Shown one piece after another: positions 28,334 through 54,748 of a stretch of DNA of 64,000 bases. Where the stretch lies: positions 530,923 through 594,922 of the forward strand of contig CM041204.1 in NCBI GenBank assembly GCA_023078555.1, written 5' to 3'. The notes under the pieces were generated by a model. The model was not told where the DNA came from. It saw only the letters and a list, made by a program, of their open reading frames with translations, and did not search any database. The stretch is from Ulva prolifera. Taxonomy: Eukaryota > Chlorophyta > Ulvophyceae > Ulvales > Ulvaceae. The position numbers and the translations under genes are program-made. Positions within the stretch are counted from its first letter, which is position 1, and each line of letters starts with the position of its first letter.

Positions 28334-29823
28334 TGCATCGCTGTGTGCGCATTATTGACGACAAAGGGAACAGCATACTACGTGCAGAAAATCAATTGTT
28401 CCAATATCTGATCCTGAGTCGTTTCGTGATGTCCTCGGGAAGGTTGTCCCCAAGTCCAGGTTCCGAGTGAACTGCGTGCAGCTGACGCAGACAGCCAATA
28501 CACTGGCTGAGGACGCTAGTGAAACGCTAGATGTGGACGCAAAAGTGACGGAAATTCTTGAAATCATGGCGAGCTGTCAGGGGCACACCCCGCTGATCAT
28601 CACCTACGTCGTGGCGCGTCTCACTCATGAGTGAGACTGCATGAGCTTCACGCTGTACCACCAGCGATGGCTAGCCCTCGATCAACGAAACCAGCGGCGG
28701 GGGGCGCAATGCAAGTCAATGGTCAACCCTCTCCGGAATTATACTCTACGCATGTCCAGGACCATGGCAATCGCACTGAATGCGGCACAGCAGGGGATGC
28801 TGCTGAACAGCACCCAGTCCAGAGCCCTCCCGAGACGTCTTCACCACGCCATGCCAGTACCGCAGGGAACAATAGTGAGGGCAGAGAGGCTGGTGAAGAG
28901 TGCGCCTCTTAGTAACTGATGATATGCATGGTGTCCTGCATAGCGGCCATTGTTAACACCACGGCTTCAACTGCACCCCCGTCTGCAGCAGCCTGTACAC
29001 CGCACGCGCGCCACGCTGTCCCGACTTTACGCAGGCGAGATCCTACGTGTCTACATATGTGTATATGCTCGTGTGCCGTGAATGCATGACTGCGCTCCAC
29101 TGCTCAGAGGCGAGCACCCGTTGCCTCTGGACCCGCCATCCAACATCATCAATGCACAGATCTCATGCATGCAATGCATGACTGCACCTGAGAACATGCG
29201 GGGCTATGTGGCGTACAAAGGGGGGGCCAGAGTGCAATGCCCACCTTGACGGCTCTGCCTCAGGCAGCGAAGCTGCGGCTTCCGATTCGGCAGCTCCACA
29301 AGGCGGAGCTGAGCCGGCAAGAGGCACAGCGCCATCGGCAACCCAACAGCGTGACTGCGACTCCACCGTTGCGCGCAGCGGGTACAAACGCAGTGCCACG
29401 GGCGTCGAGGAAGCAGACAAGAGCACCCCGAAGCAGGCCCGGGCCGACGCAGTCCCACAGCCGGAGCCACTACCCCCTCCTCACACCCAAGGCGGTGCGC
29501 TGCAAGCGGCGCCAGCAGCACCGGTACCTGGCACGACTGCGCCCTCAGCGCCGCTGGAACGATTCAGCTCTCGATATTGCGTGCTTGATAGTTGGTACGT
29601 GGAGGCAGCTGGCGATGTCAGCAATTCCTACAGCGGCTGGCGGTATGACTTCATTCGATGCGGACAGGGTGAAGCGCCGGCCGCCACCTTGGAGGCGTGG
29701 CGCCCGAGTGCTGATGCCATCATCTGCGGACATACGGGCCAGTGTCCGCACACAGATGATGACGATTGCAAGAAGTTGTATCTCAAATTCAAATCAGCAA
29801 TGTATGCGTGTAAAGCTGCAAAG
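28334..29823 (+). pseudogene. Array copy 1, degenerate
   Basis: Starts like its neighbours (MHRCVRIIDDKGNSILRAEN), then a one-base deletion at about 28392-28400 relative to copy 2 shifts the frame. The N-terminal domain continues in the new frame (ESFRDVLGKVVPKSRFRV... to LIITYVVA) until a TGA near 28632. A further shift restores linker sequence down to the exon-1 donor equivalent near 28903 (GAAGA|GTGCGC). The exon-2 equivalent runs to AAG|GTGCGA at 29823 and includes STPKQARAD and the WRPSADAIICG block, but the AG of its acceptor is lost near 29204. No exon 3 with FPFG occurs before copy 2. It is a clear pseudogene. Confidence 0.75.
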
Positions 29824-31680
29824 GTGCGAGGTGACCTCACGTGCACACACGGCTGCAGTGGCGGCGAGATGTGCAAGCTGGCGTGCCGAGAAGGTGCTGC
29901 GGGGCCCGCCGCCGCTCCAGACTGCCTCGGCCACACGTGTGTTTGACATTGCAGCATGCCAGGCGGTGGGCGATGGCTGTCGACTGGGGCAAACACACCA
30001 TATGAGTTCCGCTGGCATCGCGCTTGCGTGCTGCCAATCTTGTGTGGTTGGTTGTTGAAATGGTTGGTTGTTCTGATGTCAAATGGAACGGTGAATAAAA
30101 CTAAACTGTGCAAGTTGTTAGGATTAGATCGAGGTGAATGTGGTGCACGCACGCAGCCAGGGCCCTGTGACCGGCCATGGCAATGCTCTCCTCTGCCCCG
30201 ACACTCCTGCACCTTCAGATTCCAACCCTCCAGCCTGAGGCGCCGCGTTCAGCTATGATTTTCAGCTGCCGTGGTGTGTGCTCTTCGTGCGTATGTGTTG
30301 TCGACCTGGCGACAAGGATCGGCAGTCTTTGCAAAATTTACACCAGGTCCAGAAGCTGCGCCTGTCCCCATAAAGCTGTTCATCAGGCAGAATGCTAAGC
30401 AGCAGATTCTGTTACTTGCAAGCCTGTAGTAATTCGTGCTATCCACGATGTGATGGGCCGTTGCTCCGCTGCTGGAAACGACGTGGCTAGCTACCACACG
30501 GCTGATCTGGGGCGAAGCACAGCAGCTGCAACGTCTCGGCCTGGCGGTGATGCCCGTGCATTGATTCAACCTACACTCTGTGAGGTCGTTACCTTAGGGA
30601 CAGTGATTCGTTGCCCATCGGTGGTGGTGTTCGATCAAGCACTTCCATGGAACACATGCCAGCGCACTGCGGGCTCGTTGGTGACAGATGGTGGCTGTGA
30701 ACAGGTACGGCTCAGCAGCAATGAAGTGGTGGTGTAGCGCCGCGACGTGTGATCGTCAATTCTGCAGTCTGCAGCACAGAGGCTGCTGGAGCAGCTGGTG
30801 GGTCGTAGAGACCACGTTGCGATTGCTCTGACGGTACTCAACCCAAGGCGATTGCAAATCGGGGAGCAGGCCCGCCAAAGTAAAACCTGTGAGCAACGCC
30901 GCGGTGTTTCTCATACGACTCAGTGCACAATCGTAAACAAACTGTATCAATATTGGAGAAGCGTGACCAACCTGCAACACAAACTTTTCTGAGCAGTCAA
31001 TGGTACAGCAGGCACTGTTCGGTCAGACACCCAGAAATTTTTCGAAACTGACAATTGTAGGAACATTGGATGGCTGAATCTGTGAACATTGGGCGAACGC
31101 AGCCTGGCAGATGGATGCTTTTCAGCTAGGCGACAAGCTACGTGTGGATTGAACTTGCAACATCGCATACTTCGACAGATAGGGCAGTACATACAAGCAG
31201 CGTGCATTGACTGCAATTGCAATTCGCCAGGGCCCTACCCGCATGCACTGCTGCGTCGCTACTATCTGCACCGACGATGCAAACACGGCCAGCGATCGCC
31301 ACCACTTTCACCGCTGCGCATAAGCATATTACGTGTGTGCCACTCCTACTGACAAATCAGTGAAGAGCGTGTGGCATACCGGTAAGGAACCGAGCGTGGG
31401 CGATGAGCTGTTCGAAGAGGTGGGGACACGCCCGCCCAATGGCGTCCCCGAGATACACATTTTACAACGAAGTACATAGCAGTATCGTATGAACGTTCTG
31501 TGCCGACATCTGCCACAATACACTCTTCAATGGTAACTCAAAGCTGCTGTTCAGGATCACCTTAACGCGAGGCTACACAGCTAGGCATGAAATACGGTAA
31601 AGCTGTGCGAAGCAACAATGCATATCTGTCGGCGCTGCAGCGCGCTGCTGCATGCGATACGCACACCCGCAGCGCATGGA
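29824..31680. other. Intergenic, copies 1-2
   Basis: No FPFG exon and no supportable gene. Short frames on both strands. A small GTGGTTGGTTGTTG repeat lies near 30045-30075. Confidence 0.4.
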
Positions 31681-31682
31681 CA

Positions 31683-31715
31683 TGTCTACAGGCACACCTT
31701 CATGTCTACAGGCGC
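31683..31715 (+). promoter_or_regulatory. TGTCTACAGGCRC motif, doubled, before copy 2
   Basis: TGTCTACAGGCAC at 31683-31695 and TGTCTACAGGCGC at 31703-31715, 201 and 181 bp before the ATG. The doubled arrangement matches copy 1. Confidence 0.5.
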
Positions 31716-31883
31716 AGTGGTTGTCAACTCGATGCTGAAAGTCAACATACGAATGCGCTGTCAAGGCCATCGCATGGCCATAACAAAGCATCAGCACCAA
31801 ATCTCGTTGATGTAATTCAATTGTTGCACTGCATGATGTGAATTAGAGAGTACGGGCGCAGTGATCAGCTGTTGGCTTACAAG

Positions 31884-34236
31884 ATGCATCGTTGTGTGCG
31901 CGTCGTTGACGAGGACGGGCGCAACGTTCTCCGTGCAGCGAATAAAATTGTTGAAGTTTCTGATTCAGAATCATTCCGTGATGTCCTCGGCAAGGTTGTC
32001 CCTGATTCTAGGTTCCGAGTGGATCGCGTTCAGCTGACGCACACAGCCAGTGCACAGGCTGGTGATGCAAGTGAGACGCAGGACTTGGATGCAACAGTGA
32101 CTCAGATTCTGCAATTCGTCGCAAGCAGTCAGGGCTACGATCCGCTCATCATCACCTACGTCGTGGCGCGTCCCAACCAGGAGCTTGCACCACCAGAGCT
32201 TGCTAGCCCTCCATCAACGCAAACAGCGACAGGGGACGCTGTAGCCGCTGGCATTCAAACCTCCCGATCCTCTCCTTCTGGGCATTCTGCAGCACAACGC
32301 ACCGGCACTGACTGTGGCGCGGCAGGTGATCCTGGTGCCCAGAACACAGGTCAAAGCCCTCAATCCAAGTCTTCACCACGCAATCCCAACACTGCTGAAA
32401 CCAGCGTTCAATCCAGGCATGCTGGTGAAGGGTACGCCTCTGGGAAGCTGCATGTACACATGACCAGCTGCATCCTGGGTAACACCGCCACAGCCTGTGC
32501 AGCCCTGCCTGCTTGTACCGATGCTGTCCTGATCGTGCATGGCGGTTCCTGTGTCTTCACTATGCGATCCTCCCGTATGTGCTATGTATGCCGCACGCCT
32601 CTGCCCCTCTGTGCTGAGGTACCCGCCCGATGCCTATTTCTGATGGACCCGCAAGCCGTACCCATCAATACAACGCTTACATACATCTAATGCTCACTAA
32701 CTAGTAGACGCAGCTGCGCATGTGCAGGGCCGTACGCCGCACGGAGGGGGGGCCTGGTTGCTCCCACCTTCCAGCCCGCCTCCACACATCGGCGGCAGGC
32801 AGCGCACCTGGGGCTTCCGCAGCGACAGCTGTGCAAGGCAGGCCGGAGCCGGAGGGAGGCACACCGCTACATGCATGCCGGCAGCGTGATGGAGGCGCTG
32901 CCATCGTGCGCAGCGGCCAAAAGCGGTGCGCTGCAGGTGTCGGCAGCGCCGGCCAGAGCTCCCCGAAGCAAGCCAGGACCGCCACCGCCCCGCAGTCCGA
33001 CGCACCGCTCCCCCCGCCACGCACCCCAGGCGGCGCCCTGCCAGGCGTGCCAGCAGCACCGCTGCCTGCCCCCGCCCGAGCCCCGAGCGCCGGGCTGACG
33101 GCCAACTGAGAGCAATCTGTGTCCTATGTCTCAGGAACTAGGCCATGGTTCCGTGTGGTTGAGAACTACTGCGTGGAGGCTGGAGAGCTCGGCAGTTGTT
33201 ACGGCGGCTCGCGGTACAGTCAGCTGCAGAGCTGGCTAGGTGAGAAGCCATGTAGCAGCGTGGTGAGCTGGCGTGCACACAGCGCTCCCATGATTGTATT
33301 AAGTCAAATCTCAGAGTACTGTGAACCCTGCAAGCTCCGGTCCAAGCTTCGGTCGGACATGTCTCACTTGAAGTCTATCAAGGTGTGAGGCCGCCCGCCC
33401 TTGCACGCCACATCCTGCTTCTATAGCCATCATATGCCCACGTCATCTCTCGGTGCTGGGGCTTCGTCCGTTTGAGCATGCCTCGCCATCCTGTGTGGGA
33501 GTGCAGCATTGCCGACTGGCCAGCAGTCAGTTGCTAGCAGTGCTTATGTACTGGCTCTACTTCCCCCTGCACGTGCTCCTCCTGCGTCCGGGCTGTGCTG
33601 ACTGTGCGCGATTAATCGGCCAGCAGTGGTGGCAGTCATTGCAAGCGGTGTTTGGTGGGCTGCGCGCAGAGCAGGGCCTAGCTAGAGATCTGGTGAACCG
33701 CTTCAGTAAATCTGGGCATCTGATGTGCTGAACTACGTCCCAGGGGTAGCAAGCCCTGTGCATCGTCATCACCCTGAACATGTGAAGTGTGTGCACCTGG
33801 GCCCACTGCGTATCCCAGGCATGCGGCAGGCTGCATGTTGCAGACGGTTGCGCGAATAGTCCCGCCAGCTGGTGATGCGTGTGCACACATTCTGCACATC
33901 CTGCACATCCTGCATGCAGGAGATGCTTGCGTTGCATTCGCTCCGCTCGTTCTCCTCCTGTATGACTCCAGCTAGGTGAATTCCTTTGGCACTGCTACTT
34001 GCACGTCACAGTTGAGGTGGTGGGTGCAGCCGCGTTTTTACTTCCCGTACGGCATAGCGGTCGTGGCCCAACCAAGTCGCAGACTCTATAAGTTTTGGGT
34101 CGCATGGCGGCTGCCGGATTGCCGCGGCGAGGTGCTGCAGAAGGCGCATCGGGCCATGGCAGATAACTTCGAGGCGAACATTGACTACCTGATGTCCCTG
34201 GCTCGCCCCACCTGCGGCGTCCATGCAAGCGGCTAG
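31884..34236 (+). pseudogene. Array copy 2, one in-frame TGA
   Basis: Exon 1: 31884-32431, N-terminal domain (MHRCVRVVDEDGRNVLRAAN... to LIITYVVA) and linker, phase-2 donor GAAGG|GTACGC. Exon 2: 32728-33382, acceptor tgtgcag|G, linker with QSSPKQART, then RVVENYCVEAG and the C-terminal-domain first half, donor AAG|GTGTGA. Exon 3: 34030-34236, acceptor gtgcag|CCG, PRFYFPYGIAVV...WVAWRLPDC...AHRAMADNFE. All phases match the other copies. The only lesion is a TGA at 33107-33109 inside exon 2, with normal family sequence resuming at once after it. A 469-codon protein would otherwise result. Without evidence of readthrough I call it a young pseudogene; a sequencing error is possible. Confidence 0.7.
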
Positions 34237-34239
34237 GTG

Positions 34240-34960
34240 CGCCACACCCAAGCCGGCCTGCAGCGGCGCATGGCGCTATGTGCAACGTCTTGTCATGAGG
34301 CAGGTATCAGCATCCGTCGGCGTGGTTCCAGCATTGTCATGCTATCTCGTGTGTTCCTCAGACAGCGGCCAGGCTGAGTCCAGTGCAATACGGCACCACA
34401 CTGTATGTTATGTCAAACAATGCGCTGTGTGTGCGCTCGTAAGACGCCTGCCCATGCAATGCAGGGTGTGCTGCCCGCCACGTACATGTGCGACTTCCCA
34501 AAGCCATGTGTGCTGTCAGCACCTACGGGCTTCAAACTTGGGCTGTGCTGAAGTGGGGCTGCACGGCCCCGGCGCGACCCCTGCAGGTGGAGCCGCAAGC
34601 GTGCGTACTGTTCACCTCGACTCGCCACAGCAGGGCACGGTGCACACTCACCGCTGGTTTCTGAGTGCTGCCCGCCTCACCGTCTCGATCCTAGCAGCAC
34701 ACTCACTGCTGGTGGTGTGCTACACACTAGTCTGTCATTGCAAAGTATTGCAGTTTTGAGCCCGGACGGAGGCTGAGTGAGGAGAGCGTGTTTCGCGGTA
34801 GTGTCTACTAGTGTGCGCCGTTGAACACATGCCACTTGGCTGTCCAGCGCCGCGCGACACGCTGGGTGAATGACGATTGAATGGCAGGGGATGACTGCCT
34901 TGCGAATGCTGTGGCTCTTGTGCGGTGGGGATCTGGAGTGTGTTCTGTTGCACGGAGCAC
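34240..34960. other. Intergenic, no gene seen
   Basis: Frames on both strands without splice support or paralogous counterpart. Confidence 0.35.
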
Positions 34961-34969
34961 GCCGGTTGG

Positions 34970-35890
34970 TTTGTGTTGTCTTCCTGCGCACTTGACTGTT
35001 GCAATTGCAAAAGGTGTTGACGCCGGGCATGTGTGAAAGTAAAGCAACTGTGTATACTGTAATTTGAGTGAATCACTTTGCCATAAGAAAGTATGCATGT
35101 CCGTCAACACTGTAATATGCACTGCGGCTGAGTGCTGTAGCACATGGTCCAATGGGTTGAGGACGGATTAAAAGCTACCCCCTCCGTTTCAGGAGGTCGT
35201 GGGTTCGATTCTGCGTGCGCTTTGGGGAATCGAAACGGCCGCACGTGACCACCTCGCTTAGCACAGGAGGAGGCCCTGTGAGTTGCGTACGGTCGTCTGA
35301 GGGGGGTTTCCAGGTGGTTTACCCCTTCGGCATATGTGGTCCCGTTAATTCGGAGTTGTCAATGTCCAATAGGATACGGCTCAGTAAATTTAGATTTACT
35401 TTACTTTACACGAGGTGTTTCTGTGGCAACTGTACTGGCTGGCTCCATACCAACGGTCACATCTGGCGTGAATCCCCACGCCACTTGGCTGCGGCACAGC
35501 GTGTGCCACAGTGCAGCTTCAGGCTTTCGGGGGCTGTGTAATCTGTGCCACATCGCGCGAGTTTCTTCAATTTTAGAACAATTGCAATGAAAAAATGTGT
35601 CAGTGCAGCTGATAATCATACACAGTAGATAACCTGCACTAGCTAGCCTGCAAGCCAGTGCATTCAATACGGGTGATAGAATCTAACGAGCCGCACCTGA
35701 TCTGCAAGCATTCCTGTTCTGCAATGTTTCTGCGACTCCGAAGCATGCGTTGCAGCATGCACTGAAGTGAGCACCGGCTGCCACGATGCGGACAGCGGCA
35801 TGCACACCATGCATCTTCCAGATGCCTCCAAAGCAGCACCGGCTCTGCATGCTCTCCGCCGGACACTGCAGCACGACCAGCCCCTTGTCG
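34970..35890. repeat. Duplicated intergenic block A (with SINE inserted)
   Basis: Matches block B at 43540-44195: shared strings include TTGCAACGCCGG/TTGACGCCGG, CATACCAACGGTCACA, ACGAGCYGCAC, GATCTGCAAGC, TGCAATGTTTCTG and CAAAGCAGCAC. The only large difference is about 260 bp present here at 35148-35408. Confidence 0.75.
35148..35408 (+). mobile_element. Full-length tRNA-derived SINE
   Basis: The head has a D-arm-like GTCC-loop-GGAC, a CCTCC/GGAGG variable-arm stem and a B box, GGGTTCGATTC, as in class II tRNAs (Ser/Leu type). A body follows, and the 3' end is GATTTACTTTACTTTAC, a short tandem tail typical of SINEs. It is absent from the paralogous block at 43540-44195, giving an empty site near 43705. 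Flanks CACATGG (35141-35147) and CACGAGG (35409-35415) look like a diverged target-site duplication. Copies of the 3' part are at 1074-1152 and 2238-2316. SINEs are non-autonomous and mobilised by a LINE; the partner is not in this window as far as I can see. Confidence 0.65.
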
Positions 35891-35899
35891 CTTTTCGTT

Positions 35900-37030
35900 C
35901 AACAGTGACTATGCGGAATGATTGAAAAGCGCCAACCCCGAGGGGTGAATTGTCAACTGATGAGGATGGGATGCCTGTATAGTGCTACTTGAGTGGCAGC
36001 CTCACTCGCAACAGTCACTGCGTGTCATGCCCCAGGAACTAGCATCTCCCCATCAACGTGCACTGCTATAGTATCCTCTGTGGAGACTGTTCTTGCTGAG
36101 TCATGTGTGACATCGTACACGGTATGAAGAGGCAGCTAGCGGACCGACTTAGGCCGGATCCTAAGTAGTGTGAGCGTATCTGCATCGCTGCAAGGCTGTG
36201 CGAGTCGGAATGGAGACGGTTCAATTACCGACATGCAGTGTCCAACCACAATCCGTGTCTCTGCATGGCGATGGCGTTGCAGCCGAGGCGCCCACAGGCT
36301 CGATGCCACAGCATTTGCTTGCAGTCGCAACTTAGTTGTTCAGTGCTGCGCTACTCCGGGGCCAGCTCGATAGATTAAGTGCCAGGTCATGAGTCTGGCT
36401 ACAGTTTGGGCCCAGCTGCTTGGAGGGCAGCAGTTGCACCATCACATCGCCACAACATACACACCCATTAGATGCGTCCTAAAGCTGAATGGAGCGTCTA
36501 CGATCTGATAGGACTGTATCTACGTTCACTTGAATGGTTGCAGCGATGCTACGAGAGCTCCGAGGCGTACGTCGGACGTCCAAGACGGACAGATCGCACA
36601 ATTGCGTATACATACAACTGTGCTGAAGCTCATGCTCTGCTCCAACGCTGCTATTGTCAAATCGTAGATCAGCGTACGGCATACCACTGGCGAGTGAAGT
36701 CTGGGGTCGCGGTAAGGGCTTGGGGCGATCCGACCGGAGGCAGTCCCATGGCATACAGCTGATTCCGCAAGCCCGCTTCTTGGCGTGGATATCCTCTCTC
36801 TGAGGTTTTTCCGGTGTCTCAGACACGATGCGCTCCCGAACTCGCTTTCAGCTCCGAGCTGTCACGCGATTCCAACATACGAAGCTCCGAGCTGTTTTCC
36901 AAGATCGAACAAGACCACGAGGCTGCCGTGGTGCTCAGACGACATAGCGTTGAGTGGCTGCGCTTTCGCGCGCTGCCACGACCGTCAGGCATGGCAATGG
37001 AGCACAACGTGTGTTCAGGGCTTCACGCAC
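35900..37030. repeat. Duplicated upstream block, unit of copy 3
   Basis: The stretch from 36472 matches 40230 onwards: both begin ATGCGTCCTRAAGC and read MRPKAEWSVYDLIGLYL / MRPEASTWRVDDLMLLFL. The following TGGCR, GATCCGACCGG/CACCCGACCGG and CAGAYACGATGC strings also agree. Both lie about 740 bp before the ATG of an array copy. Whether the MRPxA frame is a gene is unclear; frames diverge quickly. Confidence 0.45.
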
Positions 37031-37040
37031 GCTGTGCATG

Positions 37041-37053
37041 TGTCTACAGGCGC
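37041..37053 (+). promoter_or_regulatory. TGTCTACAGGCGC motif before copy 3
   Basis: Single perfect copy 181 bp before the ATG of copy 3. Confidence 0.5.
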
Positions 37054-37221
37054 AGCGGCGGTTCGAGGTCTGAAGGATCAAGCATAGGCCTGGCTGCAGC
37101 ATGGCAGGTCAACCAGCGCAAGTTGCCCAGACGCTTTCTAAAAGGTATTTGTGCAGACACATGTTGTGTGCAACGCTTTTTGCGCAGCAAGTTTTGAGCT
37201 GGGCCTGATGATACGTACACC

Positions 37222-39317
37222 ATGCACCGATGTGTGCGTATCATCGACGAGCAGGGGCGAAACATGCTCCCTGCAGGAAATAGAATTGTGCAGATTTCCG
37301 ATGCAGAGTCGTTTAGAGATGTGCTTAACAAAGTTGTTCCGGAAACCCACTTGCGCGTCAACAGCGTGCAGCTGACGTCCACAGCCAGTGCACAGGCCGA
37401 AGACACAAGCGACACGCAGAATGTGGACGCGAATGTTCAGGATCTGCTTCAGCTCGTTGAAGAAAGCCAAGGCTGCAAACCACGAATAATCACGTACATC
37501 GTGGATCGTACCCCTCGAAATTCGGAACGACCAGCTGCCCGTGTCAGTCCTCCACGAACGCAAGCAGATTCTGACGACGTAGTGATAGTGGACGTAAAAG
37601 CGGCTCGTGCACATGCATCTAGCCAAGCTCCAGGTCTATGCAATGACGTCGAGCCTGGCACAGCGGGAATCCCAGCTGGTGACCAGCCTCCTCGAAAGCA
37701 GCCATTGCACAGCCATCAATCACAGTTGTCGCTGAAGTCGCGGGCCACTGCTGACACCGATGCTCCAGCCGAACAGGCAAGCCAAGGGTGTGTATCTCGG
37801 CAGCTGTATGCATGCATGGCCTGTCGTGCTATGGCAGCTTCACCTCAAACGCCATTCGCCTCCGTGCGCCGCAGTCACTTTGCCTGTGCATGCTCACCGC
37901 ACTCATGTATGACGTACATGCTGCTATGCTCCTTTGCGCACCGCTGCGCACCGCTGCGCACATCGTGTGTGATGATGTCATCACTCTGTACCTCAACATA
38001 ATACGCATCGTTGCCACGGTATGCCATGTGGCATATATATCTGCAAAACGGACAGCTTGCCTGTTGCCTGCAGCACCGGCAGCCGCAAGGACGAGGAGGC
38101 AGTCCACCTCCAAGGATCAGTCTTGGTCAGCCTGTGCAAGTTGTCTGCAGCAGCTGCTGTGCGAGGCAGGCAGGGGCAAGGGCAAGGCACATTGGCACCC
38201 GGCAGCCGGCGACGTGGAAGAGAGTCTACCGACGTGCGCGCTGGGCAGCACCGGTGCGGTGCAGACATCGGCAGCGCAGGCCAGAGCTCCCCGAAGCAAG
38301 CGAAGGCCTCCTCCCCCGCCCGTGGTGCTACCCCACCCACAAAGCATGCGCGCGTCGACGCGGGGCCGCACCTGGCCGCGGGGCCGAGCATGCCACCCCC
38401 CCTAGATCCCCCGCCCTCCGCCCCAGGCCTCCAAACTCAGAAGACGCCGAAGAAGAACCCCAAGGATGCGCGGCCGCATCTGTCGCTGCTGTGTACATAT
38501 GTCAAGGATAGCTTCTGGTTCGCGGCGACTTCGAAAGAGCGTGCTCGGCTGAGATTCAAGACGTTACGGGCCGAGCTTGCGGCCGCAGCGGATGTGTGCT
38601 GTGAGAGCTGGCAACCAAGCCCTGCCTCCGTGGTGTTGATAGGCGAGCATACGTTTGCGCCGGACACCGGGTTGAGTGATCACGCGAAGCAGCAGAAGCT
38701 GTACGCGGCGATGTCATTGGTGAGGAGTGGGGAGGTGAGTATCTTGGTCACCAAACGTACGGTGCCGTGATTCGACACCAGCAGTGTCAGAGCAGAGTTT
38801 GAGCTTCAGCACAGCTGTGTGCATACGCAGATCGCGCGATCAACCCGTCTTGGCCGCCTCGGAGCTCGTCGTAGCGTACCCTGGTGGCCTTGACTGTCGA
38901 CCTCCAACTGGCGCTGTCTGTCCAGCCCGCCACCACTGTCACAGGCTACATGTGTGGCATGTATCTCGCTTGTGCTTGTGTGACGCCGCGCCTTCAATGA
39001 TTTGCGAGTGTAGTTGCCCCAGGAGAGTCACTGAGCCAACAACGATCTGGAGAAGCCAGTGATAATGGGACCGTGTGCAGGTGAAATTCGCCTTCCCGTA
39101 CGGAGTCGTGAAGATCGTGACAAAGTTGCCCGGTCGGAGGGAGGGGCAAAAGACCGAATGGCTCATGTGGCGCCTACCCAATGGCAAGGCCGCGGCTGTT
39201 GAGGAGGCACACCGCCGCATGGTGGCCTTCTGCAACGCAGATCCGAGTGCCCTGCGCTGCCAAGCCGCCACTGCCCATGCCGATCAGCGAGCCCTCGTGC
39301 ACGCTCCTTCCCAGTAG
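37222..39317 (+). CDS. Array copy 3, intact three-exon gene
   Basis: Exon 1 37222-37787, exon 2 38074-38734, exon 3 39081-39317, joined 487 aa. Intron 1 (286 bp, phase 2): CAAGG|GTGTGT ... gcctgcag|C. Intron 2 (346 bp, phase 0): GAG|GTGAGT ... gtgtgcag|GTG. Residues 1 to about 95 form the N-terminal domain (MHRCVRIIDEQGRNMLPAGN; ends RIITYIVD), with strand-strand-helix-strand-helix-strand order by eye. Residues about 100-330 are a Ser/Pro/Ala/Gln linker with QSSPKQAKASSP and KHARVD basic patches. Residues about 335-487 are the C-terminal domain: SFWF, an RLRFKTLRAEL helix, ESWQPSPASVVLIGEH, KQQKLYAAM, then VKFAFPYGVVKIV, EWLMWRLPNGKAAA and AHRRMVAF. TAG stop after HAPSQ. Basic patches suggest a nuclear location; molecular function unknown. 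Confidence 0.8.
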
Positions 39318-39319
39318 CA

Positions 39320-40958: not shown

Positions 40959-43002
40959 ATGCATCGATGTGTGCGCATTATTGACGAGCACGGGAGCAAC
41001 ATGCTTCCTGCAGGCAATAGAATAGTGCAGATTTCCGACGTAGAGTCCTTCAAAGATGTCCTCAACAAAGTCGTCCCGGAGTCCAGCTTGCGCGTCAGCT
41101 GCGTGCAGCTGACGTCCACAGCCAGTGCACAGGTGAGAGACGCAAGCGACACGCAGGATGTGGACGCGAATGTCCAGGACCTCCTTCAGTTCGTTGAGGA
41201 CAGCCAAGGTTACAAGCCGCGGATCCTCACGTACATCGTGGCTGATTGTGCTGAACAGCTGGAGCCAGTAGCTGCGCATGTCAATCCTCCACCAACGCAA
41301 ACGAGTTCAGACGATGTAGTGGTGGTAGACCTCGAAGTGGGTCAGGCGTGTCCAACGAGTCCCTGTACAGCTCAAGGCAATGACACCGAAAAGGGCCCAT
41401 GGGCTGCAGCGGGGAGCCCTTGTGAACAGACTCTTCAACGGAGGCCAACACAAAGCCCCCAAACCCAGTCTTCACTGAATTCGAGTGCCGCTGGTGATAC
41501 CAACAATCAAAGAAAAGGGGCAGGCCAAGAGTGCGCCTCTTGACAACTGTATGCATGCATGCCCTGCAGCGATGGTGTCCCGCTCCAATGTCCATCCCAT
41601 CACACCGCAAAAATCTCTGCTTCACTTTCTCTGCGCCACGTCACATTGGTCCTGAAGAACATTTAGAGCACAATCGCATTCACAATGCAGGCGTCGCAGT
41701 CACACTGGTCATTGCATAGCCATTGTGCATGGTCATCCCAGCGTTTTTTTTGGTCCCTTGTTTTTTCTTCGCTCCGGCGGATGTTGACCATGCATACCGA
41801 AATGGTCATCCCAGCCTTCTGTGCTCCCTTGCGCACGCATCGACAGGGCTGAGCAACTGCAGGATCGTGTGCCGCGAGGAGGGCAAGGCAGGCCACCTAA
41901 AGGGATCGATGTTAGGCAGCCTGTGCAAGGCTTCTGCAGCGGCTGCTCTGCGAGGCAAGCAGCAGCTGGGCGAAGGCGCCGCGGCATCTGACAGCTGGCG
42001 CTCGGACAGAGATGCTGCCGGCGTGCACAGGGGGCGGAAGCGGTGTGTCTCATGCGTCGGCAGCGCGGGCTGCAGCCCCCCAAGGCCAGCCAAGGCCTCT
42101 TCCACGGGCCCCGGCGCCGATGAGGCATCGCAGCTGGGGCCAACCGTCCCACCCATCAGGCCGTCCCAAATCTCGTCCACAGCGCTCCCAAGCCCCGCTT
42201 TGGCGACACAGAGGCTTGACAAAGCTCTCACCTCTCCGGCAGCATCACATCTCTGCGTCGAGGAAAGCACGTGGTTCGAAGGGAGTGCGAGGCCGCGTAA
42301 TCTGTGTTCCTTCAAGCCCATGCGGGACGTGCTTGCATCCGTGGCTGCAGCGGATGTGTGCTCTGTGGGCCGGCAGGCCAGCGCGGAGTCCTTGGTGATG
42401 GTAGACGCGCATTGGTTTGTGCGTGGCGGCAATTTCAGTCAGCAAGAGAAGCATAAGAAACTGCTACCGAAAATGAAGTCCGTTTTGGAAGGCAAGGTGG
42501 GTACTGTTGAACTTTGTCATAATGGTTTTTGACTGTTAAGTGGAGGTGTCTGGTCACGACTGCTGGCCACTTGGTTTGCAATTGTGCAGTCCACCTGACT
42601 CGCGTGTGTGTTGTGGGGGGGTACGCTGCGGGGGCCTGCAGGTTTGGTTGTTCATTGTCAGGTCATGAGGGTGGCAGCCTCAAGAGAACCACTGAGACTC
42701 CGACGAGCGGTATCCAGCAGCAAAGGTGCGATTGTGTCCAGGTGAGATTCACCTTCCCCTTTGGAGTCGTGGCGATCTTACCAACGCCTGCCCAGCCTGA
42801 TGGCAGTTCTCATCAATTACAGCGATGCCGGCTGCGGAAGGAGTGGTTCATGTGGCGCCTGCCCGACGGCGAGGCCGCGGCTGTTGAGGAGGCACACCAC
42901 CGCATGGTGGCCTTCTTCGAGGCAGATCTGTGCAACCTGCGCCGCCTAGCCGCCGCTGCCCGTGCCGAGCGTCGAGCCCTCGCGCGCGATTCCTCTGCGT
43001 AG
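40959..43002 (+). CDS. Array copy 4, intact three-exon gene
   Basis: Exon 1 40959-41530, exon 2 41863-42496, exon 3 42742-43002, joined 488 aa. Intron 1 (332 bp, phase 2): CAAGA|GTGCGC ... aactgcag|G. Intron 2 (245 bp, phase 0): AAG|GTGGGT ... gtgtccag|GTG. An in-frame ATG at 40947 would add four residues; I prefer 40959 because MHRCVR is the shared start. The N-terminal domain is very close to copies 3 and 5 (ISDVESFKDVLNKVVPES; ILTYIV). Exon 2 has the PPRPAKASS patch and a full C-terminal first half (LCVEESTWFEG, FKPMRDVLASVAAADVC, AESLVMVDAHWF, KHKKLLPKM). Exon 3: VRFTFPFGVVAIL...RKEWFMWRLPDGEAAA...AHHRMVAFFEADL. The REC of donors, acceptors and stop position (TAG after DSSA) fits a working gene. 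Confidence 0.8.
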
Positions 43003-44195: not shown

Positions 44196-44254
44196 GTGTG
44201 CAGCATTTCCATACATGCAAGGTAGCCGCTGAGCTGACCCACAGCATTCATATG

Positions 44255-44407: not shown

Positions 44408-44446
<39 letters not shown>

Positions 44447-44460: not shown

Positions 44461-44695
44461 CCGGTCGAAGCCCGCCACAAGCACGGGCATGATGACCTGG
44501 TCATTTCCCTAGACTGCATGCACCACAACACCTGTACATACGATAGGGCTGCGTCCGGCGTCATGCCCCCTGTGCAATGCCACGCGCTCGCTACACATTG
44601 TTTGTAAGCAGCGCATCGCATGTGCAGGCAAGCTACCACTCGGGCACCGACGCCACTACCCGCTCCATTCGCGGCCGCAGGCCTGAGACCCTCGT

Positions 44696-44998: not shown

Positions 44999-44999
44999 T

Positions 45000-46205: not shown

Positions 46206-46218
46206 TTGCGTGTTTTTG

Positions 46219-46520
46219 TGTCTACAGGCACTGGGATGCACAGCTCCAACTTCGAACTCTCGTTCCAGAATGGACAGTGACAGAAACTGCGCCAAAGCAT
46301 GGATTGCCGTATCCTGAGCGTCTGATGCAGCGTAGATATTGTCTCACACACGATTCCGACTTAAATAGCTCAAAGCTGCAAAGAAAACAGGAGCTGAAGT
46401 GAGTTTGCATGTGAAATGTGTTTTAGCAGCAGTGCACTGGCCGCGCGCAGCAGCGCGCAGCAGCTCGCGTGAAGCATCGCTACGATGAATTTATCTTTGT
46501 AACACAATGCATGTCTACAG
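46219..46520 (+). promoter_or_regulatory. TGTCTACAG motifs before copy 5
   Basis: TGTCTACAGGCA at 46219-46230 is the counterpart of the copy 6 motif by flanking homology, but lies 481 bp before the ATG. A shorter match, TGTCTACAG at 46512-46520, lies 188 bp before the ATG, at the usual distance. Extra sequence between them distinguishes this copy. Confidence 0.4.
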
Positions 46521-46699
46521 CTGTAGGCAAATAGCCGATGGTCCACCGATCGGTGCCCTGAATAATCTGGCCTAGCTACGGCAGCGCAGGGCCGCCAACG
46601 CACGTTTCTCAGACGTGCAAGATTTCAGTCTGCAGCAGCTGTTGTATGAATTATATTTCGTGAAAGAGGGTGTAAGCGGGAACCAGCTGGACGAACCAG

Positions 46700-49001
46700 A
46701 TGCATCGATGTGTGCGCGTTATTGACGAGGACGGGCGCAACCTCCTCCCTGCAGAAAATAGAATCGTGCAGATTTCCGTCGTAGAGACGTTTAGAGATGT
46801 CCTTGACAAAGTGATGCCAGAGACCCACTTGCGCGTCAACTGCGTGAAGCTGACGTCCACAGCCAGTGCACAGGCTAGAGACCCAAGCGACACGCAGGAT
46901 GTGGACGCGAATGTCCAGGACCTCCTTCAGTTCGTTGAGGACAGCCAAGGTTACAAGCCGCGGATCATCACGTACATCGTGGCGTGTTTCGCTCATCAGA
47001 TAGAGCCAGCAGCCGCGCCTGTCAACCCCCCACCAACACAGGCACCTTCAGACGATGTTATGCTAATACGCTTTCAGGCGGCTCAGGCATCGCCTTCAAG
47101 TCCCGGTACAGATCAATGCGATGACATCGAATGTGGCCCAGAGGGGAGCCCTGGTGCACAGACTCTTCAACAGAGGCCAACACACAGCCCCCAACCGCAG
47201 TCGTCGCTGAAGTCGCGTGCCGCCGTGGGCACCAACAGTCTACACAACCAGGCAAACCAACGGTGTGTCTCTTGACAGGTGTATGCGTGTATGACCTGCT
47301 GCGGGTCACACTGTTTCAATGTCAGTCACAATGCATGCGCCGCAGTCACACCGACGGCAAGTACACAGCCACTGTGCATGTCCCTCACACCTTTATGAGA
47401 CCACGACGTGGGCCGTGTATGTCGCACGGCTGTGCTCCCCTACGCACAGCTGCGCGGACAAAGTCTAATGCAGTTGGAGTCAATCCGTACCGGACGCTGG
47501 TGTATGTTGGTGCGGCAACAAGGGTGTGGCAGAGGCGACGAGCGGAGCGTTGAACTGATGTGACAACACACCACTGCAACATCACGCCAAAAACCTTCGC
47601 AGAGGTAGCTGTGGCGTACGATGCATGTGGTCGCATCGCCGCTGCCGGGGAGCTTCCTTTTTTTTTGTTGCTCTGAACGAATGCCTGCTGCCGAAGGCGT
47701 GCTTGCAGCGTAAGGGGCACCGGGCCTCAAGGAACGATACATCTGAGACACCAGTGCCACCATCTCAAACAGACAGCTGGACTGTTGACTGCAGCACAGT
47801 CTGCCACGAGGGTGGGGAGACAGCCCGCATCCAGGTTCCGGTCACGGCTAGCGTAGGCAGGGTCTCTGCAGCGGCGGCTCCACGAGGCGGACAGGATCCT
47901 GGAGGATACATTTCGGCACCCGGCAGCCAGGGGCGGGATACGCAGGTTGCCGTTTCGCGCAGCAGGCAGAAGCGGTGCGTCTCCGGAGATGTCAGCGCTG
48001 GCCCGCGCACCCCCAAGCAAGCCAAGGCCTCCTCCCCCGTCCCTAGCGCAGCTTCGCCCGCAAAGCATGTGTGCGATGACGCGGCGGCGCAGCTGCGGCC
48101 GAGCACGCCACGTCTCGGGGCGTCATCAGCCTCCCTCGCAAGACTCTGCACACGGGAAGCGCACACACAGAGGCCCCAGGGGAGCACGGGTCCCATGGTC
48201 GCATCACAGCGTCAAGGTCAGCTTCTGTATCGAGGAGGGCACAACAAAACGTGCTCGGCCTCGCTTCCAGCCGTTGCAGGATGTGCTGGCATCTTCGGTC
48301 GCAGCCCGTGTGTGCTCCGAGAGTTGGCAACCGAGTGCGGCTGCTGTGGTGAAATTAGACGCGGACTGGCTCGCGCCGGGCGCCAGTGACCAGGAGAAGC
48401 AGAAGAACCTGCAATCAGTATTGACGGGCCTGAGGGACGGCAAGGTGAGCACCTCCACAGCTTTGTAGTTGCCTGCCAAGTGGCATTTACCGCCACGGTG
48501 CATGCCTGCAGGCGTGGCTGCTGGCCACTTGTGATGTGAGGCACTAATCTTGAATGTGTACGCCAGGGAGGGGGGTTGTCTCCCAGAGATCCACGTTGAA
48601 AGCACATCAGCCCCACGGCGATCACGGAGCCTCAACCCAAAGTGACCAAGCAGAAAAGGTGGGATGGTGTTCAGGTGAGATTCACCTTCCCGTTCGGAGT
48701 TGTGTCGATCGGCGTGATGCAGGCCAGGTTGGGCTGCCGCCGGGACGAATGGTTCGTGTGGCGCCTGCCTGACGGCAAGGCGTCCGAAGTCCAGGACGCG
48801 CACCGCCGCATGGTCGCGTTCTTTGAGCGCATCAAGGCTGCCAAGGCGAGTTTGGGGACTATGCCCCACAATGCAGCCAGTGGCATGCAGGCCAGAGAAC
48901 TGCCAGCGTTGGTTGACAGCTGTGAGCATTATGCCACCACGGATCCGTCCATACCACGGACAGCGGGCACAGGTGCCGCAGCGGAGCGTGTGCCACTGTA
49001 A
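46700..49001 (+). pseudogene. Array copy 5, frameshift in exon 2
   Basis: Exon 1 46700-47262 (phase 2, CAACG|GTGTGT), exon 2 47795-48444 (ctgcag|C ... AAG|GTGAGC), exon 3 48675-49001 (gttcag|GTG). The splice sites and the N-terminal domain (MHRCVRVIDEDGRNLLPAEN; RIITYIVA) are normal. Exon 2 is 650 bp, one base out of phase with its neighbours: linker with RTPKQAKASSP in one frame, then, from about 48195-48215, SFCIEEGTTKRARPRFQPLQ and ESWQPSAAAVVKLDADW in the next frame. Exon 3 restores VRFTFPFGVVSIGV...EWFVWRLPDGKASE...AHRRMVAFFE and has a longer tail than other copies. One extra base (or two missing) near 48200 explains everything. Pseudogene or sequence error. Confidence 0.7.
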
Positions 49002-49286
49002 CATTACTTGAATTAAATTTGAAAACGACAAGCCTTGCAGCGACGCTCACCTCCTGCGCACATGGACCTGCTGCAGCAACGCCGGCACCTCGTCGCAGCC
49101 AAACGCGAAAGCCTCCGCAAGTTCATGCATGTGAAACCACCCTGACCATACCCACACAATCAGCATGCACCAGTGCTGTACCACCAGTCCCATGTTCACG
49201 TCCGGCGCTTCTACCATAGCCACTCGCACCGCTGCCCCCGCATCCACCCCCTCCCCCCCAAACCAAGCAAACCCCCGTCAGCCTAC

Positions 49287-49385
49287 ATCATCTGCTGGAC
49301 CACGGCGGCCACGGAATGGTCGATGTGAAGGTCGGCGTGGACGGTGTCGGGGTAGAGCTCATCGTCGTCGCCGCTGCCAGGCCTG
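49287..49385 (-). pseudogene. Relic of Gly/Tyr family exon 2
   Basis: Reverse strand reads DDDELYPDTVHADLHIDH then VAAVVQ, matching EEDELYPDFVRVIFHQDRDKAAVW at the start of exon 2 in the 55.8-57.3 kb gene. It ends in a stop soon after. It sits after copy 5 as the relic at 44.3 kb sits after copy 4, so both probably descend from one gene in the duplicated unit. Confidence 0.6.
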
Positions 49386-49389
49386 TGGC

Positions 49390-50390
49390 CCGCCCGGTCC
49401 CCGAATCGCGCCTGTCTGGCATGTGATGTTCCATCATGACTGCACAGTGGCATGGTTGGGCGTCTGCTTCATGCATAGACTGGACACCTGCGTAGCTGAT
49501 CGCCGCGCTGCCGGTGGAATGCGTCAAGCATCCACGGCCTACGCCATCTGCTCCAACACGGCACCAGGCTGAGACGGTCCGACCCCAGCGCGCCGACAGG
49601 ACCTGGATGCAGCCTGCAGCCCGCTGCCACGCCAGCCGCATCAGGTGTCAGAAATGCATTGCGGCGGCCTGCATACGACGAAGGGGCACATGTCTAAGGA
49701 GGGCCGGGGCATGCGCACGGACGACACGTCCATGCCTGCATCATGCTCCACAGCCAGCTACATGAGCCGCCGCCCCCGAGCATACCGCTCTGAGCCTGCA
49801 CGGCATGCAACAGGCACACACAGCAGGACGCATGCGCACCATGCACGCACGGTGGTGCCACGCAGCAGGCACGCGCAGCAGGCACGCGCAGCAGGCATGA
49901 GGCGGGCGCAGCCTGCACCTGCAGCAGCAGCAGGCCCTCGCAGCGGGGCGTGCATGGAGCGCGCGCGCCGACAGCCATGCCCCTGCAGCAGCGTGCCCCC
50001 AGCCCCACGCCTTTGGAGTCCGCCACGAAGCACAAACACATAATCGACTGATCAATGGGCGTGCAGCGCCACGTGATGCGCCCTCCAGACCCGTCACTCT
50101 GACGCAAGAGAACTCTCAGGTTGCTCTCAGAGGCTGGCGGACGTCATAACGTCATAAAAATGAATTAATAATTGTTGTGCACATTGTTGCTACGCACTAT
50201 TGCGCACTGATTTTGCTACTCGCTGCTGTCTTGTACGTACACGTATACGCAGCAGCTGATGTTGCCCGTGCAGGTGCGCCGCCTGACGCCACTGCCCGCT
50301 CCCATTGCGCGCCCCGAGCCTGCTGTGCGGGGCAGCTGTGGGAGTGAAGCCGGGAGGCGCCGAGGAACACTCACTGCCGCATCCCCGATT
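49390..50390. other. No supportable gene; short repeats
   Basis: Contains GCAGCAGGCACGC repeated about three times at 49861-49900. Frames are biased in composition. Confidence 0.35.
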
Positions 50391-50392
50391 TC

Positions 50393-50800
50393 GTGGAGGC
50401 CGGCACGGGCACCGGCAGGTCTGAGGCGTTACGCAGCAAGGCCCTGCGGCGCCGATCCATGACTGCCATGCTTCATGGCTGTGCGCAACACTCCAGGAAC
50501 AGGGCTAGCCCCCCAGAAGCTGCCGAGTGCCTGAGTACGCATACAGTGTGCAGCAAGACCTGCTGCAACAAGCCCAAACTTCCGGGTCAGTTGGATGAGT
50601 GTGAGCTGCATAGTGACCCTGGCGGTGGCCACGTGTGGGAGCATGATGTGGAACGCCGAACCCGGTGTGGACCACTGGCACGCCACCCTCCACAGCCACT
50701 CCGGCTGCGCTGCACGACGCGTGTCATGCGTCTACAGGTGATGCGTGTGATTCCAGGGTATGTTTGCTGGTCTCCATCCGGACGGACGTCGTGGCTGTGA
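50393..50800 (+). CDS. Cys/His-rich hypothetical frame, paralogue of 44.7 kb
   Basis: 135-codon frame. Residues about 40-90 hold the block shared with 44696-44998: SPPEAAECLSTHTVCSKTCC and LPGQLDECELHSDPGGGHV. Conservation of Cys/His positions with divergence elsewhere would be consistent with selection, but many synonymous and indel differences need an alignment. Possible small secreted or metal-binding peptide; function unknown. Confidence 0.35.
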   Translation: MEAGTGTGRSEALRSKALRRRSMTAMLHGCAQHSRNRASPPEAAECLSTHTVCSKTCCNKPKLPGQLDECELHSDPGGGHVWEHDVERRTRCGPLARHPPQPLRLRCTTRVMRLQVMRVIPGYVCWSPSGRTSWL

Positions 50801-50989
50801 CCAATAACTCTGGTTGATTCATGGCAAAGGAAGACTCCCCCAGTGACACCAGCAGTATGTCTGGTGACCATGCGTTTCTTGTTGTGTCAGGCGCTGATAT
50901 GGAACGAATTCGTGCTCTGACGCATGTGGCCAGACACGGAGCGAGGGTACCCTCCACACCGGTGTTCGTGGTATCGGTGTTCATGCAAG

Positions 50990-51930
50990 GCTTGCAAGGG
51001 ATAGCCTTGGCACCTGTGCACCACGGCGTTCACCGGGACGCAGCAGTTCAGAGGTCAGCCCTGCGCCATCTTGGCTATAGTTGAGCAGCAAGATTTTGGT
51101 TGCTGGTGCTGGCTGACTGACCGCTAGCACGACGGGGAACGGCGTACGTGCGCCGTTCCCCGATGTGGCGCAGGTTGTGCAGATAAGTGCCTGACTGCCG
51201 CTCTGCGAGCAGCTGGAATCAGGCATCTCTTGACATTGGTGCGTCCCACATAAAAACAGCTAGCCATTCGGTGCTGTGTGGCCTCCTTGCCAAATGCAAA
51301 CATGGGAACATTGCCACGAGCGCCACCGGTGGTACCAGTACACTTGCGGCAGTTCCGCACGGAGATATCGGGTTGAAGTGCAGAGCCAGTGTGGACGATT
51401 CAGATCCGAGGGAACGTCGGGCGTCTGCACAACTGTCGCTGCGCACATCACGCCTCGGGAGCACCAGCAGCGGCGCCAACATGCACTCCGTCCGTTGGAA
51501 GACTGAATGTGCATTCAATCGGACGTCCAGCTGTCGACACCAGCCTACGCAGACTGCTGTAAATTGTACTGACAATTCCGCGGAACAAGTCGGGGAACAC
51601 TCGTGTGGCCTTTCGTCAAGATTCTCATTCAACCACGACCGACTCGGGATAGGTCCAACAGCCGCGCAAACATCCTCTCAAAGCTAGCCTAGGTTGTGTA
51701 TTCGGCAAGATCGAAGAAAAGACACCCTGACAGTCTAACCCCTGATGCGCAGCCTGTGCTGACAGCCTGTGATGACATCGCTCTGCCAAAGCCTTCCGGC
51801 TCCACATATGCAAACAATAGAGCATTGACGGCGTTCTGCGCTTATTGTATCTCCACCATTGCGGTAGATGTGTGTATCTGCGGTCTGGACGCGCCCAGAT
51901 TGACATGCAGCGAGGAGATCGCTGCATATT
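50990..51930. repeat. Duplicated intergenic block C' (copy 5-6 spacer)
   Basis: Counterpart of 45000-46205 in the same order and orientation, more diverged in frame. It precedes copy 6 as block C precedes copy 5. Confidence 0.55.
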
Positions 51931-51941
51931 CCACAGTTTCG

Positions 51942-51954
51942 TGTCTACAGGCAC
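51942..51954 (+). promoter_or_regulatory. TGTCTACAGGCAC motif before copy 6
   Basis: One mismatch to the consensus, 177 bp before the ATG, preceded by the pyrimidine-rich cacagtttcg. Confidence 0.5.
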
Positions 51955-52118
51955 TCAGACGCTCAGTTGCATTTTTGAACTGTCGAACGGTGATCTGGCT
52001 AGAATCTCATCCCAGAATGACCACCGGCAGATATCACTTCAATTGGCATCGATTGTTGTATTCTCAGCGTCTGGCTGACTGCGGGGCTTCGGCACAGGCG
52101 GGCGCCAGTCGCTGAGAA

Positions 52119-54748
52119 ATGAATAGATCTGTGCGGGTACTAGATCGCGAAGGGGACAGCGTCCTCGCTGTCGCAAACAGAATTGTCAAAGTAGAAGCCT
52201 CGGAATCTTTCCGTGATCTGTTCAAGCGGCTCCTGCCCGAATCCGAGCTTCGCGTGCTCTTTGTTCAGCTGACGCAGGCAGCCACCACACAGGCGAAGGA
52301 TGCCACTGAAACGCGTGATCTAGATGAAACTGTCTCCGAAATTCTGCATCTCGTTTCTATCAGCCACAGCTATGACCCTATGGTCATCACGTACGTTGTG
52401 GCGCAGCCCAGCCTCGACGTGGCGCCAGCTCCAGATCCTGCCGCACCGTCAGTGAAACGGCCAGCAGCAGCAGACCCCGCCGCAGCCCCTCAAAAGAGTA
52501 AACTGCAGACACCTTCAGACAAGGATGCAGCGTGCGATGAAACCATTGGCAGCGGGCGCGCAGACGCGGACGCTGTCGAAGAGCATGCCACGCAGAGCCC
52601 ATATAGTCCACAGCAGTGCCCCGCCACCGATGATCCAGCGGCAAGCGACGGCGCCCCTGAGCAGCTGCATGATACCACAAGAGATGACGACAGCTGCGGC
52701 TACTGTGGCCCAGATGCGATGGCTCGAGCCGCGATGACATACGCATACCTCGCGAAGCATGGGTGCAGCTTCCTGCCGGACGACCCCCGGCCCGCCGTGT
52801 TTGAGGCCCTGAGGGATGCCTTTCTCCTGATGACCGTCTTCAGCCACCTGCAGCTGCAGTGCTCCGTGGCCCAGGCAGAGCTGGACGCACTGGCTCCGGC
52901 CATCCAGGCGGCGCCGGACGGCAGCCGTCAGCATGATACAGACGAAGAGCTGGAGGACGGCCCCGGCATGGCTCATGAGGTCCTCCTCCTGCTGCGTGGT
53001 GAAGATGTGCAAAGGTGTAGTCTCCAAAACACCATGCATGTGCACAGCTGCCATGTCCTGCATGCATGCCTGGGAGTGTCCAGCGCTCTCGAGAGCTCCG
53101 TGGGTGCAAGGTGTCGCGTGAACCCTGGAGCTGCTCTACTATGCGAAAAATTCATCTTTAACAAATACATATACATGTATATGATCTAGATGACCGTGAT
53201 GCACAGCCCACAAACATTGGCACATTCACAAGTCCGTACTGCTGCTCCGATCCAGGCGTCCAAGCATCTTGTTGCTGCTGAGGTCGGCTGGGAGTCTTGT
53301 CAGTTTTCATGTTCTGGGAGGCTTTGGCCACCTGGACGGGCTGGGCTGCGTGATCCCGTCCAGATTGACAGGACACCATACGCTCGTCTCCGGAATCACA
53401 GCTACAGGTCTTTCACGCCTTTCAAGATGCCCATAGCAGCCCACTAGTTCATCAAGTGGGGTGGCTGCAGGGTGTGGAGCCGCAAAGAGTGGCAGCCAGT
53501 GCGTTGCCTTCTCTCTGCCTTCTGCACCAAGATCGCTGAGGACGCCGGCATCAGGTGCAAGGCCGCCGCGCAAGCCGAACTAGAGGGCGCCGTGCGGCCA
53601 CATGTATGCAAGCACTGCGGCACAGAGTGCCGTCCCCGCACAGTCGGGGGCAAGCACCGCGCCTCCTTCCTCGTCCCCAATACCCCGCCTCCCGCAAAGC
53701 GCGCTCGCAGCGACGCGGCGGAGCGACCGCGCCCAAGCACGCCACCGACCGGCAAATCCCGCGTCTCACGCGCGACGCTCCCGACTCAGGACAAGTCGCC
53801 GCCAAAGAAAACTAGGAGCGCGCGGGGGTCTCTGCCGCCGGCGCGCCTCAGTGTCGTGGAGAGCTTCTGTGTTGAGGGGAGCGTACAGAGGTATAGGTGG
53901 TACCGCTTCCGGCCGCTGCAGGCTGTACTTGCGTCCATGGACGCCGCATACGTAGGCTCAGAGAGCTGGCAGCCGAGTGCGGACGCCGTGGTGATGGTGG
54001 ACGCGCACTGGTTTTCGGCGGAAGCTGAGCTGAGTGATAGGGAGCGGCAGATGAAATTGCGGAAGGCGATGCTGGCCCTGATGGAGGGCACGGTGCGTGA
54101 TCGCGGGGCTGCTTGGCGACAGCAGCTGGTTGACGGTTGTTGGGTAGCGCGATCTGATTGGCCTCAAGCCGCCTGCCCTGCACTCTGTGGTTGCATTCTG
54201 GTACGCAGGATGTGGCTTATGTGTACGAGGAGACGCGTCCAAGCTGGGCTCGGCTGCATGCCCGGAACGCTCTCGGGTTTGATGCAGCAGCTCCCCAGCT
54301 GCGGGATTTAGGTTGGGAGGGATCTGCGCCTGCCCCTCAGAGGCCCTGTTGTACATAGCCCCGTGATCGAACCCCTGGCAGATCATCATACCTCTGAACA
54401 CTTTCAGAATTTCGGACGCAGCCGCATATCAAATTTCGATGTCTCAACTAACATGGCCCCACCATTAAACAGACCCATCATGCATCGGCATTAGTGAAGG
54501 CGGATTGTGTGCAGACAAAGTTCGCGTTTCCGTACGGAGTGGTTTCGATACGGCCGAAGCAGGCCAGTGCGGTCAACGGTCGGAAGGAGTGGTTTGTCTG
54601 GCGCCTGCCGGACGGCACTGCCTCAGCAGTCAAGGAGGCACACAGCCGCATGGTTGCATTCTTCAAGGCAGATATGTGCACCCTGCGCCGCAATGCCGCC
54701 TCTGCCCGCAGCGACAGGCGAGGCCTCCTGCACGTGCCGTCGCAGTAG
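52119..54748 (+). CDS. Array copy 6, longest intact member
   Basis: Exon 1 52119-53014, exon 2 53471-54092, exon 3 54515-54748, joined 583 aa. Intron 1 (456 bp, phase 2): CAAAG|GTGTAG ... ggctgcag|G. Intron 2 (422 bp, phase 0): ACG|GTGCGT ... gtgtgcag|ACA. The N-terminal domain is the most diverged (MNRSVRVLDREGDSVLAVAN; MVITYVVA). After a linker, residues about 190-298 form an extra, apparently folded helical segment absent from the other copies (CGYCGPDAMARAAMTYAYL, EALRDAFLLMTVFSHLQLQC, a GMAHEVLLLL stretch). Exon 2 has HVCKHCGTEC and PPAKRARSD, then SFCVEGSVQRYRWYRFRPLQ and ESWQPSADAVVMVDAHWF. Exon 3: TKFAFPYGVVSIRP...RKEWFVWRLPDGTASA...AHSRMVAFFKADM, stop TAG after HVPSQ as in copy 3. 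Confidence 0.8.

Follow-up and report, generated by a model that had tools for sequence, protein, structure and literature searches.

The window analyzed here, a 64,000-nucleotide stretch of the Ulva prolifera genome (contig C9, positions 530923 to 594922, in an assembly of 88.9 Mb and 44 contigs), contains six related units in tandem on the plus strand. Each starts with an ATG-led N domain, at positions 28333, 31884, 37222, 40959, 46700 and 52119, giving ATG-to-ATG distances of 3551, 5338, 3737, 5741 and 5419 nt. A preliminary description of this DNA had reported six same-strand units with a common start, a shared exon order and intron phases of 2 and then 0, spaced 3.5 to 5.7 kb from ATG to ATG. 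All of these features were seen again, with a measured spacing of 3551 to 5741 nt; only the start of the array, given as 28334, was off by one, the true first base being 28333. All six units are present, but only units 3, 4 and 6 are intact, and the C-terminal motifs ascribed to every unit hold for units 2 to 6 but not for unit 1, in which no profile detects a C exon.

Units 3, 4 and 6 are open and, with GT-AG splicing, reproduce the proposed proteins of 487, 488 and 583 aa, respectively. Their introns are 245 to 456 nt long and are in phase 2 and then phase 0. In the spliced model of unit 3, exon 1 (37222..37787) encodes the N domain and a linker, exon 2 (38074..38734) encodes the M domain and has an alternative in-frame acceptor 9 bases downstream, and exon 3 (39081..39317) encodes the C domain and carries the stop. 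The spliced model of unit 4 comprises exons at 40959..41530, 41863..42496 and 42742..43002. In that of unit 6, exon 1 (52119..53014) adds to the N domain and linker an extra segment common to the family members on contig C1 and is followed by the M domain exon (53471..54092) and the C domain exon with the stop (54515..54748). Exon 3 of all three units starts at the homologous acceptor discussed below.

Units 1, 2 and 5 are decayed. Exon 1 of unit 1 (28333..28634) contains a frameshift inside the N domain, with the other frame in use from about 28395, and a stop after the domain. Its M segment (exon 2, 29554..29829) is weak, with an E value of 0.003 to the M domain of unit 6; no C exon was found downstream of it by profiles, and the DNA similarity between units 1 and 2 stops just upstream of it. 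In unit 2, the donor of exon 1 (31884..32431) was set by eye at the phase 2 site homologous to those of units 3 to 5. The exon 2 region (32708..33382, its start being approximate and not a called acceptor) contains an in-frame TGA at 33107-33109, and exon 3 (34030..34236), identified by the C profile, has the homologous acceptor. Unit 5 consists of an exon 1 identified by the N domain search (46700..47262), an exon 2 region (47795..48444) in which the frame shifts between about 48127 and 48205, and an exon 3 (48675..49001) identified by the C profile, again with the homologous acceptor.

Profiles were also built exclusively from family members beyond the window (13 N rows, 16 C rows and 16 M rows) and compared against the window and its reversed sequence. 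The N profile detected exactly 6 N domains (E values of 2.5e-26 to 5.6e-15) and the C profile detected 6 C domains, 5 on the plus strand and 1 on the minus strand (4.2e-16 to 3.5e-9); in the reversed window, these two profiles had 0 and 0 matches at an E value of ≤0.01. The M profile was weaker, with three matches at an E value of ≤0.01 (the minus-strand copy, unit 6 and unit 5) and a best match of 0.011 in the reversed control, and it did not find units 1 to 4, the M segment of unit 1 included. By this comparison, the six-unit array is more than chance, and the six-unit observation is confirmed as real at the sequence level.

The preliminary description was right about the six tandem units but overlooked a seventh, diverged relative that precedes the delimited interval and is encoded on the minus strand. 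The M domain of this relative (22513..22758, minus strand; E value of 4.8e-10) lies inside a 933-codon open frame (24924-22126), and its C exon (21501..22139, minus strand) carries a basic K-R-Q-R signal and is without an acceptor AG; it has no recognizable N domain. The orthologous protein found in the protein collection, P0004, is 98.6% identical and reads VQV at the missing acceptor, as expected if the AG were present. A partial copy of the upstream frame of this relative, in three patches of 67 to 70% DNA identity, occupies 15179..17469 on the minus strand, and no C domain was found at this copy.

Family members across the genome

The family extends genome-wide and is wider than the array first described. 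Three N-domain queries converged on at least 22, at least 22 and at least 21 places, and the at least 22 places comprise 17 on C9, which accounts for 6.4% of the assembly, 4 on C1 and 1 on C2. A C-domain query found at least 19 places, to which a C1-type M-C query added the four C1 genes; a C profile over the window and the fetched loci identified 25 C domains with E values below 1e-4. The domain plan consists of N (about 95 aa), a linker rich in Ala, Pro and Ser, M, and C (about 50 aa), the last with the motif F-x-FP-x-G ... W-x-x-WRLP-x-G ... H. At two loci (L018 and L023), M-C is repeated downstream of one N, with three pairs at C9:2.79 Mb and two at C2:1.43 Mb; we infer that each of these loci is one gene. 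The extra segment that unit 6 shares with the C1 genes after the linker was not seen in units 1 to 5 and is presumably ancestral. In the N-domain tree, built from 18 places out of 22 (omitted were unit 1, the place at C9:3.52 Mb and two segmental duplicates), units 2 to 6 group together (92/90), as do units 3 to 5 (100/99), and the C1 genes stand apart (100/100).

The gene structure is conserved along with the domain plan. The acceptor AG falls at exactly the homologous base in 22 of 23 C exons (the 25 minus the near-identical duplicates L011 and L012), 20 times as CAG, and the one exception is the minus-strand copy in the window. A phase 0 donor, GT in 11 cases and GC in one, lies 1 to 6 codons past the M profile in all 12 cases examined. 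These homologous sites argue against retrocopies and support the second junction independently of RNA; the first junction is based on units 3 to 6 and P0001, a protein described below. As judged from the splice-site positions, the phase 0 intron between M and C is ancestral and occupies a homologous position across the family. The first M-C junction of L023 (C2:1429500-1439000) likely has a GC-AG intron at this conserved position. A segmental duplication was also found on the same contig as the window (G000:C9, 8050-24204 and 215235-231389; L009 to L012), with two family members in each copy; the offset between the copies is 207,185 bases throughout, or about 207 kb.

Comparison with known families and folds

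The preliminary description could not name a family for these proteins, and no significant match was obtained here in Pfam, NCBIfam, PHROGs or PDB sequences. In Pfam, the three full proteins matched 0 families at an E value of ≤10, and there was no match for the 22 C rows; nothing significant was found for the 18 N rows (best, OTU1_UBXL at 0.013, in 2 of the 18 members), the 12 M-C rows (best, 0.1) or ten longer ORFs (two matches, at 0.33 and 0.095). Searches of NCBIfam (best, 0.039 and 0.056) and PHROGs (best, 0.35) likewise gave nothing significant. Among PDB sequences, the full protein had no match, and the best E values were 0.7 for N, 0.47 for C, 0.038 for M and 0.12 for M-C. The extra segment of unit 6 and the C1 genes looks BEN-like, a resemblance for which Pfam gave no support.

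Structures of the N and C domains were predicted from the six-row window alignments. The N domain resembles PB1/beta-grasp domains in its inferred strand and helix pattern and its N-terminal position but differs from them in having no PB1 profile match (none in Pfam at an E value of ≤10 among the 18 N rows), and its AlphaFold model is unusable, with a pLDDT of 49. The C model (pLDDT of 67) has the order strand-strand-strand-helix; a fold search with it matched no fold, although absence from the match list excludes nothing.

The family might nevertheless represent a highly diverged DNA-binding or other known fold that escapes sequence comparison, with AP2/ERF (PF00847) and the Rubisco small subunit (PF00101) as the two candidates that left an echo. 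The predicted topology of the C model recalls AP2/ERF, and true AP2 domains and SBP domains are present in this genome, as is typical of the green lineage; however, the C segment shows no profile similarity to AP2/ERF, with 0 of 22 C rows matched in Pfam and a profile comparison probability of 0.15% on one column. The Rubisco small subunit shares with the C segment the micro-motif W-x-x-W-[KR]-L-P before a helix, its chains are among the weak PDB matches of the C profile (E values of 0.88 and 1.6), Rubisco is also among the weak PDB matches of the M-C profile (E value of 0.12, with the best stretch outside the motif), and hhalign returned a P value of 0.0028 on 11 columns. However, that comparison was picked post hoc, only these 11 columns align, at a probability of 10.9%, a second comparison aligned 31 columns at 2.3%, and Pfam gave no match in the 22 C rows or the 12 M-C rows. 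Together with the fold search that matched nothing, these values make a concealed membership in a known fold unlikely.

Selection, decay and taxonomic range

Selection was estimated as dN/dS (NG86 with bootstrap), with the decayed units 2 and 5 included. In the N domain, dN/dS was 0.18 to 0.30 in 9 of 10 pairs, the tenth being units 4 and 5 (0.53; 0.27 to 1.06); for the intact pairs, the values were 0.18 (units 3 and 4), 0.21 (units 3 and 6) and 0.27 (units 4 and 6). The linkers of these three pairs, in the same order, gave 0.96, 0.69 and 0.65. Purifying selection acts on the N domain and far less on the linkers. In M and in the C exon, five pairs had values of 0.30 to 0.64 and 0.25 to 0.42, respectively; the pair of units 3 and 4 had 1.09 and 0.92, values near 1 that are also compatible with lost constraint. 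For units 4 and 5, dS was 0.20 (0.10 to 0.34) in the N domain versus 0.88 (0.43 to 1.8) in the C exon, and the copies are thus mosaics, which may have arisen through sequence exchange or unequal crossing-over. Intact and decayed copies lie next to one another in the array. An unspliced orthologue of unit 6, P0001, shares 284 of 298 residues with exon 1 and differs by whole-codon indels; beyond the donor, identity drops to 25 of 36 aligned residues, with a change of frame.

Decay on this scale raises the possibility that the array is an orphan, either a once-useful family or a domesticated mobile-element protein that is now drifting, in which units 3, 4 and 6 are simply not yet broken and serve no function today. 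The loss of three of the six units, the minus-strand copy without an acceptor AG, linker dN/dS values of 0.65 to 0.96 and the values near 1 in M-C of units 3 and 4 would all agree with such drift. Yet the low N-domain dN/dS in 9 of 10 pairs, units 3 and 4 among them, and the restriction of exon 1 indels between unit 6 and its orthologue to whole codons speak against this reading, and the low copy number and conserved introns are unlike those of a mobile element; drift of the whole array is improbable.

Relatives outside this genome are few. Searches of 5.8 billion proteins, in each of which about 8000 candidates were scored, returned 1, 3 and 5 proteins at an E value of ≤10, eight of them different. 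P0001 to P0004 are 94.7 to 99.1% identical to one locus each of this genome, and P0005 to P0008 are 80.3 to 85.7% identical to C1 genes, with one best locus each. From their read-through ends, the eukaryote genes in this collection seem to be unspliced fragments. No relative was found in viral contigs with the window N rows or the window C rows, in prokaryote genomes with the window N rows only, or in phages with one protein. The range of the family appears to comprise a single green alga plus close relatives, which is the best reading of these searches rather than a proof. The earlier suggestion of an undescribed lineage-specific expansion is supported within the libraries and protein collections searched, where the eight near relatives are the only ones. 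Capture of a gene from a virus or bacterium, followed by multiplication in the alga, would fit the narrow range and the amplification mostly on one contig but is highly implausible, considering that those viral, prokaryote and phage searches yielded no relative and that introns occupy homologous places in every branch examined.

The reading that we favor is that the window almost certainly contains one tandem array of a multi-domain family that grew by duplication and is apparently taxon-restricted. Judged by the searches above, the family is undescribed and probably belongs among the lineage-specific tandem families, with domains that have no match in the libraries searched. The NCL/OPR cluster of Chlamydomonas is a lineage-specific tandem family shaped by birth-and-death evolution. 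Several paralogues in tandem with a common gene structure, the hallmark of such evolution, are found here, and the resemblance to families of the NCL/OPR type extends to mosaic copies, decayed copies beside intact ones and an apparently narrow range; the difference is that no known family in those libraries matches the domains of the Ulva family.

Possible role of the family and other features of the window

Basic motifs offer a hint at the cellular location of the proteins. Of 8 long C tails (seven taken from this genome, the window included, and one from the relative P0007), 7 contain K-[KR]-x-[KR], with L019 as the exception, versus 1.4 to 4.9% in shuffles. The C tails of units 3 to 6 are short and have no such motif; basic stretches, noted by eye, are found instead in exon 2 of units 4, 5 and 6. 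On the whole, the family probably comprises nuclear proteins that evolve rapidly.

A tentative scheme can be proposed for how such a set arose and might act. The family grew through DNA-level duplication with introns retained, partly in tandem; neighboring copies are mosaic and three of six units decayed, a pattern of birth and death. The basic signals, which are short motifs, predict nuclear import of the family proteins. There, the N domain, a putative beta-grasp domain (PB1- or ubiquitin-like), might let copies associate, and the M-C module might bind a putative nuclear target, either DNA or a chromatin protein. Divergence between duplicates would affect the linker and, for one pair, M-C as well, and the likely outcome would be a lineage-specific set of gene-regulatory or defense proteins. 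Taken as a whole, from family and birth-and-death growth through nuclear localization, N association and target binding to the regulatory or defense outcome, this chain is conceivable but somewhat doubtful. A bolder reading, for which the chances are slimmer still, is that N-[M-C]n is a new class of green-algal nuclear recognition proteins, in which a conserved association domain is joined to one or more copies of a new recognition module; the class would have multiplied chiefly on a single chromosome, with duplication and exchange as the source of its diversity. In its logic, though not in its sequence, N-[M-C]n would resemble DNA-binding regulator families that are specific to one lineage.

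If the favored reading of the array holds, it would add a new protein family with three domains for which neither Pfam nor the PDB sequences give a significant match. It would also provide a compact system, with one species, at least 22 N-domain places and one 26-kb array, in which birth, exchange and death of genes are seen directly. Automatic annotation can easily overlook or truncate three-exon genes with long low-complexity linkers such as these.

The window contains several further features. Two open frames had no Pfam match at an E value of ≤0.1, namely, a 798-codon frame at 2378-4774 (plus strand), the beginning of which looks coiled-coil-like by eye, and a frame at 13829-13188 (minus strand) that contains a YVDD stretch resembling that of reverse transcriptases. 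The minus strand also carries another small paralogous family, which likewise had no Pfam match at an E value of ≤0.1. It comprises two partly Gly/Tyr-rich, two-exon genes (57325-55827 and 62927-61921), the exons of which are 47% and 60% identical, and a fragment (44912-44154) that adjoins a run of 38 C residues and separates unit 4 from unit 5. No Rfam family was found in the window. Finally, an 84-base element at 35327-35410 recurs at 2237-2317 and 1157-1074 and as near-identical repeats across the genome, with at least 41 matches listed from 1762 candidates, 40 scored.
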